A DNA stretch of 64,000 bases from Saitoella complicata NRRL Y-17804. Its lineage: Eukaryota > Ascomycota > Saitoellomycetes > Saitoellales > Saitoellaceae. Positions 50,236 through 64,000 of the stretch are shown here, piece by piece. The position numbers were made by a program, and so were the translations under genes. The stretch is from NCBI RefSeq assembly GCF_001661265.1, contig NW_017567003.1, positions 369,794 to 433,793 on the forward strand, in the 5' to 3' direction. The notes below the pieces were generated by a model. That model was not told the origin of the DNA. It was given only the letters and a program-made list of their open reading frames with translations, and ran no database searches. Numbering within the stretch: position 1 is the stretch's first letter; every line of letters begins with the position of its first letter.

Positions 50236-51854
50236 ATGCATAAACGGACTTCATTCCCGTGCCTGTGGCAGTCGCAGTCGGAGTCCGACTGTGCGTTTGA
50301 GTGTGAATGTGAAAAAGATGGCAACCCAGACTTCCTACGCCGCGAGGTATATAATGCCAAGCGAGACATCAAAACGGCAAAACTTGGGGGACGCACACCA
50401 ATTGTTGCCTTGTTGGATAACCTTCAAGAAGAGGGTCTGCCATTCCGTCACAGAGTGGACGATGAGAATCACGTCACTGGTCTTATCTTCACTCATCCTC
50501 GATCGGTTAGTTTCACCAAGCGCTTTCGAACTGTGTTGGTCATGGACTGCACCTACAAAACCAACAAGTTCCAGATGCCACTCCTCCACATTGTTGGGAT
50601 GACTTGGTGCAACACTCCCTTCACCTCTGCCTTGTGCTTATTCTCCACGGAAACTCGGGAGGACTATCTCTGGGCACTGCGCATGTACTCGGATCTTATG
50701 GGTGGTTTTTCACCTCATGTCATTGTCACAGACCGAGAACTCGCTCTTATGAATGCCAACGATGAAGTGTTTCCCAATGCTGCAAAGTTGTTGTGTCGCT
50801 GGCATATTGAGAAAAATGTGCTCACAAACCGCAAGGGTGTCTTTCCAACCAATGAGGACTGGGTTGATTTCCTCAAGACAGTGCAACGTCTCATGAACTC
50901 GTCTACAGAGGCATTGTTTGAGCAGAACCTGGAGAGTTTACTGTATGAGTATGAAAGGTCACTGCTTACATCCATACTGCCCTCCCCTACTAAACTTACT
51001 TCGTCTCAGCCTGGGTTGATGCTGTTACTCACCTTGGTTCCTCGGTGACATCTCGAGCTGAAGGTGCCCACAAATGTCTCAAGGGTCACATTCAGGTCAG
51101 CACGGGTAACCTCCTTACTGTCGTCAATCGATCTCGTTCATCCATGGAGGAACAATACCAAGAGATCCTGGGCCAGGTTGCTAAGGAGAAGACAAGTGCT
51201 GCGACTTCTTTAACAGCTCCTTTCTTTGCCGATGTCAAGTTCAAGGTTTCTGCCTTGGCGCTGAGCATGATCGAGCAACAATACATCCTTGCACGTCGGG
51301 AGTTGGCCACCGAGTTCAGGTTGCCCACATGTCGGGGTTACATGAAGCGGGTTTTTGGTCTACCCTGCGCCCATGCCAGCATCGAGGCATTGGAGGGAGA
51401 TCGTGTTCTCTCTATTAACGATGTACATAAGCAGTGGCATTTTGTCCTCGACGGGAACTACATTGGGGGACCTGCAACTGCTGAAGCCAACCAACAAATT
51501 CGTGATCCTCAAGTCTTCAACGCTAGAGGACGCCCGAGAGGCTCTCAAAACTGCCAACCAGCCATACCACAAAGCTCAACTCAGTGAGATCCCAGTGCCT
51601 TTGAGATCGTTCAGGCCCCAGCAAGGCTCTGTGGTTTATGCAGGCGCCCCGGGCATGATCGGAGGGCATGTGAGCTTCGTGGAACCCAAACACCAAGCCA
51701 GACTCAGCATCCTATTGCTCCAGTGAATGGTGGGCCATCTCGACCTTGGTTTGTACCGTCCTATGATCCCCTCCAAGCTGCTCCGGTGCAATATCAGTTT
51801 TATGGCCCTCCCCCCGGGGCGCCGTGGAATTATTTTGCTGGGTATGGGCACTGA
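50236..51854 (+). pseudogene. MULE-type DNA transposase with SWIM and CCHC zinc knuckle, decaying
   Basis: The transposase core reads TVLVMDCTYKTNKFQMPLLH (first catalytic Asp, DCTYKTN), IVTDRELALMNANDEVFPNA (second Asp in TDRE) and LCRWHIEKNVLT (the C/H-W-H motif), as in MULE transposases. An intron with a fine branch site (TACTAAAC) ends at 51009; after it come TSRAEGAHKCLKGHIQ and the SWIM-like GYMKRVFGLPCAHA. Donors at 50943, 50949 or 50958 all put exon 2 out of frame by one base; a weak GTTTAC donor at 50936 would keep it. A TGA at about 51585 cuts the frame, but past it the same frame stays open to 51854 with a CCHC knuckle CGLCRRPGHDRRAC and a Pro/Tyr-rich tail. Terminal inverted repeats were not found. 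Confidence 0.85.
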
Positions 51855-51960
51855 GGAGTCCGTGGGAGTGTTCTGGCTTTCTTTTTGTACATACTGCTAA
51901 TGTAAATAATATTATCTTGTCTTGTTCTGCTCTGATCTCTCCAATTTGGCCGGCTGCAGC

Positions 51961-52037
51961 GCGGTATCCGGGCGCGGTATCCGGGCGCGGTATCCGGGCG
52001 CGGGGGTGTGGCACGAAGAAACGGGGGTGTGGCACGA
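51961..52037 (+). repeat. Short tandem repeats beside the MULE
   Basis: Three copies of the 13-mer GCGGTATCCGGGC (51961-51999), then GGGGGTGTGGCACGA twice (52002-52016 and 52023-52037). They may mark the old edge of the transposon. Confidence 0.8.
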
Positions 52038-53522: not shown

Positions 53523-54494
53523 TCACTCCTGGTCTCTGCCGTCCTTTCCGACTCTTTCCTTCCACTCGAGACCTCCAGCTGACCCTCTCTTCTGTCTTTC
53601 GTCCCGGAATGTACTCGTCCTCCTCGTAATCCCCTCCCTTCTCTCTATGCGCCGCAGCAAATACGCATCGCGGCCATCGCCCTCGGCAATCGCCGAGCCC
53701 GGCATGTTGTCATCCTCATGACTCGGCTCATCCACTTCTCTGCCTTCCTCCATAGTCACCTCGCGGACCGTTCGAAGATTCCCAGATCTAGTAAGGTTCG
53801 GTTGACCGTGGGTGCCGCCGACGGACTCCATGGTGAATGCAGACGCGGTGGGCGCATCGAGGATGGCAAGTTCTTCTGCGGTGAAGAACCGCGGGAAGAC
53901 CAAGGTGCGAACCGGGATTAGGATCATGATGATCAATGGGAAGCCGATCGCCGCGATGGTCTGTGTAATAGCAAAGGTTCCGGCGAAACCCAGCAACATG
54001 AACCCGACAAAAGCGTAAACCGCGATCTTGCGACATCGGTTCAACGGCTCCGACTTGGACGTAAGGGAGCGCTCGCGAAAGAGATAAACGAGTTTCAAGG
54101 TGAGCCCATTCTCTTCGAGTGCGTAGATGCCCATGACCCAAAACAGCCCCGCCAACACGGCTTGCGGGATGAGTCCCAGGACAACGAGCAACGGTCCGGA
54201 CATACACCCCAACGTTAAAAGCCCCTGCGCCAGGTTACTCACCCGCTGCTCTACAACATGATCGATCACACTGATCTGTCTGTCTTCTCCATTCTCTGCC
54301 GAAGCTTTCTCGTCAATGACCCGTTTCGTGACGCACAGTGCTGCGGTGTGGAAGGGCGCTTGTGGGATGAGACCGTTAGGAGCGGGAAGGCCTAGGATAC
54401 CAGAGACGAAGGTGGTCACGCCAAGAAGGAAGAAGTCCCAGTGGAAGGCGGCGGGCTTCCGGAGGGGAAATTCGGAGCCTTGAGCGATGAGAGA
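53523..54494 (-). pseudogene. C-terminal half of a BOR1/SLC4-type anion transporter
   Basis: An exon of 323 codons begins at a GT-AG acceptor (GTACAG, 54495-54500) and reads SLIAQGSEFPLRKPAAFHWD, then FFLLGVTTFVSGILGLPAPN and GLIPQAPFHTAALCV, followed by membrane helices and a charged cytosolic tail ending GKDGRDQE. This is the second half of the borate/bicarbonate transporter fold. The first half is absent upstream but present, on the other strand, at 57470-58606, ending at exactly the exon boundary where this half starts. No stop interrupts this half. Confidence 0.88.
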
Positions 54495-54616
54495 CTGTAC
54501 GTCACTGACTTGCAATAATACCAAGGAGAGCGGCAACTTGCTCGGTTGAGGCCTTGATTAGATGTATGTCAGGCTTCTTGGTCTCCAAGAGGTAGGGTTT
54601 AAGGTCAAAAACTCAC

Positions 54617-55123
54617 AACAAATATGTGCAGCATCGTAGCCAGATGATGGTTAGCACGGGCGATCCCGTGTTTCATGAGATAGCGATCGAGGATCTCACA
54701 AAATTTTCCAAATTCCTCGCACAAGCTCAACTCAGCAGACTTTGAATCCAGCATCTTACCGATCATACCCTCCACCGAGAGTTTGGATAAATCAGTTTGA
54801 CGAGACGATCGGCGATTTCGAAACCCTCCAGGGCCAGCTCAGGCTCCGATCGATTTGTCTCCTGGGACTTAGTCCAGGTGGGTTTCAAGGCGGCCGCAAA
54901 ATACTCGGATGAGGAGGTCAAGAGCGCGCTGTGCACTTTAACGAAGCCGGAGATGAAAGTCAACTTGGCATCAGGAGCCGGCGTGACTTGCTCAATGAAC
55001 TGCTTGAATTTGAGCACAAACAACGGCTGAAATGGCTCTGAAACTTGCCTCGACAGTTATTTCACCATTGGCACCCACCTGAGGCCTTTCTGGACTGAAT
55101 AGAAGCTCTTCACTGAGTTCCAT
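54617..55123 (-). pseudogene. BTB/POZ protein pseudogene (paralogue 1)
   Basis: Exon 1 encodes MELSEELLFSPERPQ and ends at a GC donor (GAG|GCAAGT). Exon 2 reads FIEQVTPAPDAKLTFISGFV, then KVHSALLTSSSEYFAAALKP, the BTB core. After LVKLIYPNS one base is lost (near 54780) and the frame moves to LSVEGMIGKMLDSKSAELSL and FCEILDRYLMKHGIARANHH, matching paralogue 2 at 55932-56422. The 3' exon equivalent to 55491-55870 is missing; past 54617 the sequence is unrelated. Confidence 0.72.
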
Positions 55124-55490
55124 CACGCCTGTAGGTTCATGTCATAGACGTTGTTCGGTCCATCTGATATCTTATTTACGGAGCACAGGTCACCATGGAT
55201 GTAAGCACTTGAGCGAAGCCCGTGACGAGTATACAGCTACCATATTCGTGACTGACTTGAGATGAGCTTTCTCGCTTGTGAAGTGGCAAAAATCAGCACA
55301 TATTATGTATATCATTTGGGTTAGCCCTAATTGCACCGGTAACTTCAGTCAATCTGCCCGTAAGCCAGTCATTGTGGTGGTGGACCGAAGAAATATGAAA
55401 ACCACCCAATTCCTGGCCTACGGAGAGTGATTATCCCCAAATGCCGTTCCAGCACTACTCATGGTATTGCGGTACAAGTTTCAGCAAGTT

Positions 55491-56422
55491 TTAGCGGAGT
55501 GGTGAGTTCAAGACATCGAAATCGGCTTCATGAAACCCCGCTGCGATGTTGACCGCCCGTTTGTTCGGCTGACATGCAACAGTTAAGCATCCCGTGAACT
55601 TCGGACCCGGGCTGCACTGATCGCATAGGGCTTCTATGAGATGATCTTTGATTTTCAAAAACATCTGAATGATACCGTCAGAATAGAGCACATGCATGGT
55701 ACTCAGTATAATTGGGATCACGTCGGATGCTGAACGCAGGAGCTGTTTGTAAGGCTTGCCGAGCGATTGCAAAGCACCCCAATGGAGAGCGGCGTGACGC
55801 ACGATCCCCTCGGTGCTGCAAGGTAGATCGTAACGTCCAATCGTATGTAAAAGAACCGCTACTTGCCAAGTCGACGCCTCAATGACATCCATGTCAGAAA
55901 AAGACGAACCAAATGAATACCAGGTTGACACTCACGACATAAACGTACAATTCAGAAGCCAGGACATGCGAGCAATCCAAGGCTTGAGCAGGTAGCGATC
56001 CAGCATCTTACAAAACCAGTCCAACTCCTTGCAAAACGACTTTTCGGCTTCAGACGCGAGTGTTGCCTTTATCATTGCCTCTACTGAAAAGCCCGAGTTG
56101 ATGTAGATCACTTTGGTCAATGCCTCTGCGGTTCTTTCGTCCTCCACGGCGACCTCGCAAAGTATCCCTCGACCGGGTTCGCTCCAGGCGGGTTTCAGAG
56201 CGGCAGCGAAGAACGCGGAGGCCGTGGTCAGAAGGATACTGTGTACAGTCACGAAACCGCCATCGAAGGTTAACTTGAGGTCGGGTGTAGGCGTTGCAGG
56301 AATGAACTGTGACTGTTCAGCACACCTTGAAACGTCACTCGTCACGAGTATACACTTGCCTCGAAGTTCAATTCAGTCTTATCACCAGCCTTTACCAAGG
56401 ACAGCTCTTCGTTAGACTCCAT
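55491..56422 (-). CDS. BTB/POZ domain protein (paralogue 2)
   Basis: BTB domains mediate dimerisation, often for Cul3 ligases or transcription regulators. Exon 1 is 56422-56360 (MESNEELSLVKAGDKTELNF), followed by a GC-AG intron (56359-56307, donor GCAAGT), then exon 2 with FIPATPTPDLKLTFDGGFVT, VHSILLTTASAFFAAALKPA and a back half LDWFCKMLDRYLLKPWIARM. A further intron near 55945-55870 (donor GTACGT or GTGAGT, not decided) leads to a 3' exon with LLHTIGRYDLPCSTEGIVRH and IIQMFLKIKDHLIEALCDQC, ending FDVLNSPLR. No disabling change seen. Exact 3' splice uncertain. Confidence 0.68.
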
Positions 56423-56442
56423 TGTGTTTAGGGTTGGAACGT

Positions 56443-56700
56443 TTACGACTGATCCTCCTGATGTTCTTCCTCTTCCAACTGTACATTACAAGACTCCTCA
56501 AGAACATCATCAACATTCATCTCGGACTCAGAAACAACGCTGATCTCCGTCTCCATCCTCTTCCTTGAGGAAAAGCGGACAGGCATGCCAATTGCGATAG
56601 AGGTGAGTCTTCCCATGATGAGGGGAGCAGGGTTTCTCATGTGTTGCTCGTCCTCCACGTCCGCATCCGTATCCTCTTCTGCATCGCCGTCTTCGTTACA
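56443..56700 (-). other. Acidic open frame of uncertain status
   Basis: A minus-strand frame with DADVEDEQHMRNPAPLIMGR and MPVRFSSRKRMETEISVVSE, ending in an acidic, Gln-rich run. A frame at 59240-59400 (minus) has similar AMGVKYRKRSELEVEISLDV. The two may be relics of one duplicated sequence. Confidence 0.25.
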
Positions 56701-56879
56701 GGTCTCTTCGCCCGTAACCTCAAGACTCGTGGGCCTAGCAGGAACCCCGAATTTCTTAGACACCATCTCAGGTCTCCTTCGTCTTCTTCCTCCCCTTATG
56801 AGGGAGGGACCCTCGTGGGTTTCACCCAGCTCACACGAGATCTGACCAGGCGCCGTGAGGCGGACTTCCGGCTTATCCC

Positions 56880-57095
56880 TCAGTATGAGGAAGCGTCCAA
56901 ACTTAACTCTCCGGTTTTTGGCGAACATGAGAAACGAGATTCGATCCCCGATGCACGGTATGCTGTCCACGAACACCCTCCTGGCGGATGCTTCCTTGGG
57001 TACAGAGCAGCGAGACTTGGTAGCAATTATGGAAGACTCACCATCGATCCTATTGCAAGTTAATAATTATATTCCGGACTGCTCCAAACCGTCAT
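56880..57095 (+). pseudogene. Histidine kinase HisKA fragment, copy 3
   Basis: Reads LRFLANMRNEIRSPMHGMLS, TNTLLADASLGTEQRDLVAI and a continuing helix NNYIPDCSK. This is a HisKA dimerisation domain whose expected H-box Ser-His-Glu is Arg-Asn-Glu here, so the phospho-acceptor histidine is gone. No ATPase or receiver domain follows. It differs from copies 1 and 2 in sequence and so comes from another kinase gene. Confidence 0.75.
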
Positions 57096-57469
57096 CCGGA
57101 ATGTTTACGACGAGTAAGAGCGATATGAGCAGGTCCACAGAGTCAGTACGTCATAGGTGCGACTCTTATCCTTGTATTGGCTTTCCGTCCATGCATGCCC
57201 ATGTATGCCCCAGTATGCTCATTGCCCACTCGGCTAGGGCGGGAAGCTCAAAGTGCAGTCAAGTCTAGTCCTCACAATAGTCTTGGGCTTGCTCCTTTCA
57301 TAGGAGGGTCTAGCGAGACGCCGAATTCGGGACTGCCTTGGCGTATTCAACAACTAAAATGTCCCCGCGCTTTTTTATGCGCCACATTACTCCAACACAT
57401 CCGCACAATATTCTTCCTCCTTCCGACCCCATTTGCAGTTATCCTCATCGAAATAGCGTTCCAGCAAAG

Positions 57470-58606
57470 ATGACGTCGGAGGCACCAACCTTGGTGAATA
57501 CCCCCATGGCTGCTACACCTCGGCCGAGCGCGTCAACGACGCCTAGTCTGCTACAGCCGTCAGAACATCCGCCGCCGAATCGCCGTTCGAACAGAGCTTC
57601 TGCCCGACCTCCGGCAGAAAGAAGTATATGGGACCGATTGGGAATCCATCCGTTGCGCGGGATAATCACGGATACCAAGAGACGTGTGCCGTATTACTGG
57701 AGCGACTGGACAGATGCATGGGATTATCATGTGGTCCCGGCCACGATCTTCATTTTCTTCGCGAAGTGCGTACATCACACGCTCCCCTGCCCCTCGGTCC
57801 GTAATCTTATAGCGTAGCATTCTACCCGCCCTCGCATTCTCCTTCGACATGTACGTCCGCACCGACCGCTCCTATGGCGTGAACGAAGTCCTTCTCGCCT
57901 CCGTCCTCGGTGCCGGAGTCTTCTCCATTTTGGGCGGCCAGCCTCTCACTATCGTCGGCGTTACCGGTCCCATCACCGTGTTTAACTATACTATTTATAA
58001 CATCATCACGCCGAATGGAATCGCGTTCTTTCCATTCATGGCGTGCGTGTGCATTTGGAGCGCGATCATGCACTGAATATTGGCGGTCACGAATGCGTGT
58101 AATGGCCTGAAGTATGTTACGAGGTTTAGCTGTGATACCTCCGGTTTCTACGTCGCTTTGGTTTACATTCAGAAGGGCGTTCAGGTAACACCCCATCTGC
58201 TCCTTTCCGAGCTTAGCTGAGGTTTGGTCAGGTCATCACCGACCAATACGAATCCGGTCCTATTGATCCCTCAGCGTACCTCTCCATAGTCATCGCTCTC
58301 CTCGTTACCGTTTTCGGGTACTTCTGCAACCTCATCGGCCGCTCTCCTCTCTTCTGGCGTTTCTTCCGTATATTTGTCAGCGACTATGGAATCTCGCTCA
58401 CGGTCATCTTTTTTACGGGCTTTCCACATATCGGTCATATGCGCGCGGTGGGATTGCAGAGGCTTCCGACGAACGAAGCGTTCGGCACCACGTCGGGAAG
58501 AGACTGGCTTGTGCATTTTTGGGAGATCGATGCTGGGCATGTGTTCCTCGCCATCCCGTTCGGATTCCTTTTGACCGTCCTCTTCTACTTTGACCACAAC
58601 GTCTCG
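57470..58606 (+). pseudogene. N-terminal half of a BOR1/SLC4-type anion transporter
   Basis: Exons 57470-57765, 57818-58184 and 58232-58606 join by GT-AG introns of 52 and 47 nt into 346 codons. The order is a Ser/Pro-rich N-terminus, IWDRLGIHPLRGIITDTKRR, NILPALAFSFDMYVRTDRSY, GVNEVLLASVLGAGVFSILG, GGQPLTIVGVTGPITVFNYT, VITDQYESGPIDP and GHVFLAIPFGFLLTVLFYFD, ending HNVS at a GTAAAT donor. A TGA replaces a conserved Trp (58074-58076, IMH-stop-ILAV). The family's next exon is missing here but is the first segment of 53523-54494 on the other strand. Confidence 0.88.
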
Positions 58607-58679
58607 GTAAATTGGCTGCATGAATTCCCTGATTTCTCTCTGCAGAATCCAGCGGCTGCTATACACTGGGTGTCTTGAA

Positions 58680-59700
58680 AGACGTACCTCATTTCAGTCA
58701 CGTTCGAGCCGCGAGGGAGACTAATCCAGAAGTAAGCCAGTCGAACTCCAACTGAAACATCGATATGTGCCGAGTGGATCTAATCGTTGCGCACAGGTGA
58801 TTCTCCAGATTCAAGATATCCTCATGGAGGGTATGATCAAGGAACTGGCATCGACTGGTGGTCCTTGGAGGGCTGTCACTGCTGTATGCCAGCCTACCCG
58901 CTCTGCCATGATCAGCAGCTATAGCCACCGGACTTCCACCTATGGGTCGTCTGCCAAGGACGCCGTCGATAACTCGACTTTCCGCAAACACTTGCTGAGC
59001 TTCGCCCCGCAATACAAGGAGTAATTCACCTTTCTCTTTAGGCCAAGAATTGAGTGATTGTCGTGCGTTCACCACTGCAATGACTGGCTTACAGAACAAA
59101 GGCGTATAGGCTTCGCGTGAGTGCCCTGAAGGAGGGTGAGCGTATTGATTAGCAGTTTCTATATCCGTTCTGTGGTGGGGTTCTGACGTATAACACAAGA
59201 ACCTGTGCTTTCTCCGCCAAATATATGAGTTACAATTCTCCGTTCTTGCCGCACATCCAAATGCTTCTCGTGCTCCGGCTCCTCATCAACATCCAACGAT
59301 ATCTCAACCTCGAGCTCACTCCTCTTCCTGTACTTCACCCCCATTGCCATAGCCGTTTCATTCCATGAACCGTTGTTCATCATCAGCTGCTGTGGTACAG
59401 AAAACGCTGTACAACACTTCAATCTAGACATTCCCACGCTTTCGCGCCCGACGACCGCCAGGAACCCGATGAACCTCACTAGTATAGGAGACCGAGAGGT
59501 TAAATAATTTGTTATCGCAAAGACGTTAATTCCGGAATAAAAGTCATATAGGATAAATCTCCAACCCACAACTCTTCCGTGTATGATGACTGTGCTCACT
59601 TATACCGCAGCTATACTGTTCAATGCCACCATGAACGACGAGATCCTGCAGTGACCGACTTCAAATTAGCTCCAGCCGTGCCGATGTCACCTTAACATCA
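58680..59700. other. Subtelomeric stretch without firm genes
   Basis: About 1 kb. A plus-strand frame (58767-59024) and minus-strand frames lack recognised families. Confidence 0.35.
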
Positions 59701-63870: not shown

Positions 63871-64000
63871 GTTAGGGTTAGGGTTAGGGTTAGGGTTAGG
63901 GTTAGGGTTAGGGTTAGGGTTAGGGTTAGGGTTAGGGTTAGGGTTAGGGTTAGGGTTAGGGTTAGGGTTAGGGTTAGGGTTAGGGTTAGGGTTAGGGTTA
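63871..64000 (+). repeat. Telomere, TTAGGG tandem repeats
   Basis: About 21.5 perfect TTAGGG units run to the last base, with the G-rich strand reading 5' to 3' toward the end, as required for a right-hand chromosome end. The junction with unique DNA is at 63870/63871. Confidence 0.99.

Follow-up and report, generated by a model that had tools for sequence, protein, structure and literature searches.

A probable small subtelomeric inversion cutting a second-copy Bor1-like transporter gene and a BTB-like gene

Two divergent halves of a transporter gene near a chromosome end

How did the two halves of a Bor1-like transporter come to face away from each other near the end of a chromosome, and do they belong to one gene or to two? 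In the stretch of DNA analysed here (64,000 nt, hereafter the window, to which coordinates refer unless assigned to another sequence), the halves are divergent and separated by 2,975 bp (Table 1). We consider it likely that a single inversion of about 4.1-4.3 kb cut this second-copy gene in or at an intron and also cut the BTB-like gene beside it. Because the contig terminates in a TTAGGG array, the right end of the window is the chromosome end and both breaks, about 9.4 kb (left) and 5.1-5.3 kb (right) from the telomere, are subtelomeric.

Table 1. Positions of the transporter halves, BTB-like genes, breakpoint intervals and neighbouring features in the window
Feature	Position	Strand	Remarks
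MULE transposase domain	ORF 50236-51048	+	E 2.5e-23; about 3.4 kb left of left breakpoint
Bor1-like C-terminal half	53523-54494	-	One open exon; PF00955, PDB 5sv9, C23 match
Left breakpoint interval	54495-54508	-	From C-half AG acceptor to last BTB1 base aligning to BTB2
BTB1, 5' part only	54508-55150 (right limit by eye)	-	Frame shifts relative to BTB2
BTB2, tandem relative of BTB1	55360-56430 (limits by eye)	-	Present end to end
HisKA fragment, PF00512	56912-57067	+	Residues 23-74 of ORF 56846-57268, E 3.5e-6
Bor1-like N-terminal half	57470-58606	+	Three exons; TGA at 58074-58076
Right breakpoint interval	58607-58796	+	GTAAAT donor, then DNA without significant BTB2 likeness
3' end of BTB2-like gene, stop codon and 3' flank	58794-59092	+	Read as lost BTB1 part
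Telomere repeat array, TTAGGG	63871-64000	+	Contig end

The N half terminates with FDHNVS at a TCG/GTAAAT donor, and the C half opens directly after a GTACAG/TCT acceptor with SLIAQGSEF. These exon coordinates and splice signals had been given in an earlier note on this DNA and hold for both halves, as does the Trp-to-TGA change that it reported in the N half, a TGA at 58074-58076 standing where the only other copy found in the genome, on contig C23, has TGG. Its account of the intervening DNA, about 3 kb with BTB genes and a kinase fragment, was right on the spacing and on the kinase, which is a HisKA match, whereas the BTB genes are present under a weakly founded label, with PF00651 below its cut-off.

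The three ORFs tested in Pfam matched PF00955 (HCO3_cotransp) above the cut-off (E = 2.3e-32 for the C half, 9.9e-17 and 6.2e-9), and exon 1 of the N half was matched in a profile search of the genome (E = 4.3e-8). Among solved structures, Bor1p (PDB 5sv9) came nearest to the three ORFs tested, which do not include exon 1, and it reached E = 7.8e-50 with the C half in the PDB search; when aligned to it by eye, the N piece extends to FDHNVS and the C piece continues with the next residues. The window transporter is a Bor1-like member of the SLC4 family and a putative borate exporter.

Both halves correspond to one intact gene elsewhere in the genome

DNA searches of the genome scored two candidates per half, one of them the query itself. 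The sole other match of the C half was C23:229440-230363 (query 1-907 of 972, 69% nucleotide identity), and that of the N half was C23:230365-231297 (query 157-1136 of 1141, 70% nucleotide identity). The two matches are adjacent on a single strand and make up an unbroken gene, in which the two halves meet with no residue missing and SLIAQGSEF directly follows FDHNVS in a single open frame. Moreover, a genome search with PF00955 returned seven matches, all within two genes, namely the window copy and the C23 copy.

We further scored divergence from the C23 copy exon by exon and in frame, with between-codon indels outside the scoring. The pN values were 0.102 for N exons 2 and 3 (247 codons; 95% 0.076-0.131) and 0.104 for the membrane part of the C half (231 codons; 95% 0.076-0.139), and the corresponding pS values, near saturation and with overlapping intervals, were 0.706 and 0.790. 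Among the N exons, pN was 0.202 in exon 1, 0.072 in exon 2 and 0.131 in exon 3, and over the whole halves it reached 0.129 in N (339 codons; 0.103-0.157) and 0.155 in C (316 codons; 0.125-0.188). The differences lay mostly at third codon positions in every piece, and this bias, together with the like divergence, suggests similar constraint on both halves through most of their history.

The earlier note had named an origin from different paralogues as one finding that would overturn its reading. The PF00955 search found one other gene in the genome, which matches both halves with overlapping divergence. Nothing beyond the slightly unequal divergence, itself with overlapping intervals, speaks for two source paralogues, while the halves complement one another to the residue and only two PF00955 genes were found; given that count and the overlapping divergence we ruled this origin out, its probability being close to nil. 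By these comparisons, the two halves are parts of one gene and not of two paralogues. A comparison of the window with 123 ORFs taken from C23:221500-241300 showed no shared block; beyond the transporter ORFs, C23 224828-225046 and 232696-234423 match scattered, distant places in the window.

Relative to the C23 copy, stops occupy one of 339 aligned N codons (the TGA described above) and none of 316 aligned C codons. The halves have decayed little, which suggests an undated inversion that was recent relative to the transporter duplication. The window copy is most likely a pseudogene by now, a loss of function that we infer from its broken structure, and the transporter function is presumably carried by the C23 copy.

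A BTB-like gene appears to be cut at the segment's far end

One inversion predicts a cut gene at the other end of the inverted segment, a test that the earlier note had not named, and the apparent split of BTB1, found at the DNA level and in the predicted orientation, supports such an event. BTB2 (about 56430-55360, minus strand) was used as the yardstick for the two outer pieces. BTB1 at 55080-54508 (minus strand) aligned to BTB2 56391-55833 with a score of 172 (200 shuffles: mean 29.5, maximum 47; reversed target: 30), and the plus-strand DNA at 58794-59092 aligned to BTB2 55667-55360 with a score of 93 (200 shuffles: mean 28.5, maximum 38; reversed target: 26). The left and right pieces are successive parts of BTB2 on opposite strands and show similar divergence, with identities of 66.0% (349/529 aligned columns) and 69.5% (189/272), respectively. 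When the window was scanned by blastn (E up to 0.05), BTB2 matched only itself and these two pieces; its 5' part was found in the left piece only, and its 3' part only in DNA to the right of the N half (E = 4.1e-4 and 0.005 for 58794-59092), where the likeness was strongest over the final coding bases and the 3' flank. The right flank was missed by tblastn with the BTB2 C-terminal exon, both in the window (E up to 1) and in the genome, and BTB2 was not found by a protein search of the genome with the right-flank ORF (E up to 5). A reciprocal partner joined at the second breakpoint is seen in DNA only and not in these protein searches.

The BTB name is a weak label and no more. One BTB1 ORF scored 20.3 bits with PF00651 against a Pfam cut-off of 20.5, the BTB2 ORFs had no Pfam BTB match, and both genes were absent from the matches of a genome-wide PF00651 search. 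Both also look worn when set against each other: each has one 7-nt gap in its coding sequence, BTB1 matches BTB2 as two tblastn pieces in different frames, and BTB2 has an early stop 12 codons ahead of the stop position that it has in common with the right-flank piece. Two candidate relatives elsewhere were set aside, namely a C31 relative of BTB1 (E = 2.3e-4), which offered the 5' part only and whose surroundings gave no usable 3' part when read in three frames, and a hit of the right-flank ORF on C26 (E = 0.028), which was taken as chance.

Breakpoints carry no paired repeats

Positions 58595-58735 did not align significantly to BTB2 (1111 of 2000 shuffles scored as high), so the right breakpoint is placed only to within 190 bp, the segment spans 4.1-4.3 kb, and the continuity of BTB1 across this breakpoint lacks base-level resolution. 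A placement of BTB1 directly at the right breakpoint, on the strength of an AAIHW/AALHW likeness, was rejected, as 97 of 2000 shuffles were as good in the frame concerned and the nucleotide test failed.

No inverted repeat had both arms in the breakpoint intervals, and none was of 20 nt or more, so inverted repeats were discarded as the cause of the rearrangement. Two 14-nt inverted pairs near the breakpoints (54761/58825, exact; 54519/58294, 86%) are taken as chance, being of the size that chance gives. Each of the 11 tandem arrays listed between 50 and 64 kb lay more than 500 bp from both intervals. This lack of paired repeats or arrays at the breakpoints agrees with end joining and lowers the likelihood of an assembly error driven by repeats. 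A 4-kb segment wrongly oriented in the assembly, with both genes whole in the living genome, would likewise break both genes reciprocally and would suit the little-decayed halves with their one TGA; we nevertheless hold it quite improbable, given that inverted repeats with arms in the two intervals are absent, that the window is without any N and the contig reaches the telomere, and that the N half and BTB1 bear lesions of their own.

A probable intron at the transporter break

The cut in the transporter is bordered by GT and AG, and no residue is lost relative to the C23 copy or, by eye, to Bor1p. Multiplied together, the frequencies of GTRA and of YAG in the window come to about 1.4e-4, a value that speaks for a break inside an intron. 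At the site of the cut the C23 copy is without an intron; it also lacks the intron found at 58185-58231 in the window copy, and the two copies therefore differ in introns anyway. By eye, BTB1 at BTB2's length there would leave only about 25 nt for the intron, which would mean either a loss of bases or a mistaken intron reading. On balance, the break likely fell within a real intron, as judged from the splice signals. The earlier proposal of a rearrangement with one breakpoint in this intron is supported as to the rearrangement and is narrowed as to the intron: the breakpoint lies in or exactly at a putative intron site at which C23 has none. As a separate observation, the difference at 58185-58231 represents a gain or loss between the paralogues.

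One inversion would account for all four gene parts

Before the proposed inversion, the transporter would have lain whole on the minus strand and, to its right, BTB2 and BTB1 would have formed a tandem pair on the plus strand. Once 54.5-58.6 kb had flipped, the 5' part of BTB1 would have been next to the C half and its 3' part next to the N half, with the ends presumably repaired by end joining; the change is likewise presumed to have run from the uninverted to the inverted state. Turning the segment back in silico would restore the order of the parts of both genes, as reasoned from coordinates rather than from a joined sequence.

The same arrangement might have arisen through separate events, for example if the region was duplicated in inverted form and then partly deleted, or if the C half was transposed, the 3' end in the right flank then deriving from another BTB2-like copy. 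The subtelomeric site with its BTB-like duplicates and the MULE transposase about 3 kb leftward would suit such a history, as would a right breakpoint that is not resolved to the base and a 3' match seen in DNA only. We regard it as unlikely, because two or more events are needed to place four gene parts as one inversion does, searching the genome at the DNA level revealed neither the segment nor the right flank a second time, and the halves match only the C23 gene elsewhere in the genome. Small gene-breaking inversions are a common kind of event, and the loss of a duplicate gene through one single, probably recent, inversion would be ordinary biology and an instance of known processes.

We also considered a functional outcome of the inversion, namely a reciprocal chimeric gene pair with at least one member expressed, in which splicing of the BTB1 5' part to the C half would yield a fusion of part of BTB1 with a membrane fragment. 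These two pieces, the C half being open, are on the same strand, and by eye the BTB1 donor at 54616 and the C-half acceptor at 54495 could splice in the same phase. Such an expressed pair is very improbable, and an in-frame BTB1/C-half fusion protein is unlikely because BTB1 and BTB2 are worn, as seen from the 7-nt gaps, the frame change and the early BTB2 stop.

Relation to known systems

In Aspergillus nidulans, two Bor1 orthologues, SbtA and SbtB, are described as borate exporters, and deleting sbtA had less effect than deleting sbtB (PMC5541321). The present transporter belongs to the same SLC4-like family as fungal Bor1p and A. nidulans SbtA/SbtB, and two paralogues in one genome are known from A. 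nidulans as well (PMC5541321). It differs from SbtA/SbtB in that one copy here is broken by rearrangement, and the likeness is drawn by family and not by SbtA/SbtB orthology. In Dothideomycetes, frequent intrachromosomal inversions (mesosynteny) are described, with simple repeats lying less than 500 bp from breakpoints more frequently than expected by chance (PMC3516569). The proposed event shares with mesosynteny, as there described, the within-chromosome inversion as the mode of rearrangement (PMC3516569). Unlike that study, which is concerned with gene order (PMC3516569), the present case involves two cut genes, and no listed array lies within 500 bp of either breakpoint interval.

A broad literature search, by its nature no proof of absence, found no report of this locus. 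The locus offers a case that is readable from a single genome, in which the reciprocal cut in a second gene supports an inversion with no need of a sister strain. It would illustrate the one-step loss of a spare subtelomeric transporter copy, and adds little that is new on mechanism.

Neighbouring features

The HisKA match (27.4 bits against a cut-off of 26.9) lies inside the segment proposed to be inverted. The phospho-acceptor motif of this domain usually has His; by eye the fragment reads RNEIR instead, and it may therefore be a remnant of a dead histidine kinase. Chance-level Pfam rows were dropped, including ThiF (E = 0.27), Rota_NSP4 (E = 0.0012, below cut-off) and others, and Rfam gave no match in the window. 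A perfect 13-bp tandem repeat of 3.5 copies occupies 51959-52003. Finally, the minus-strand stretches 56417-56618 and 59163-59368 are weakly alike, both in nucleotides (score 50, where 200 shuffles reached 43 at most) and in protein (5 of 1000 shuffles as good), a likeness that perhaps reflects an old duplication around the BTB-like genes.
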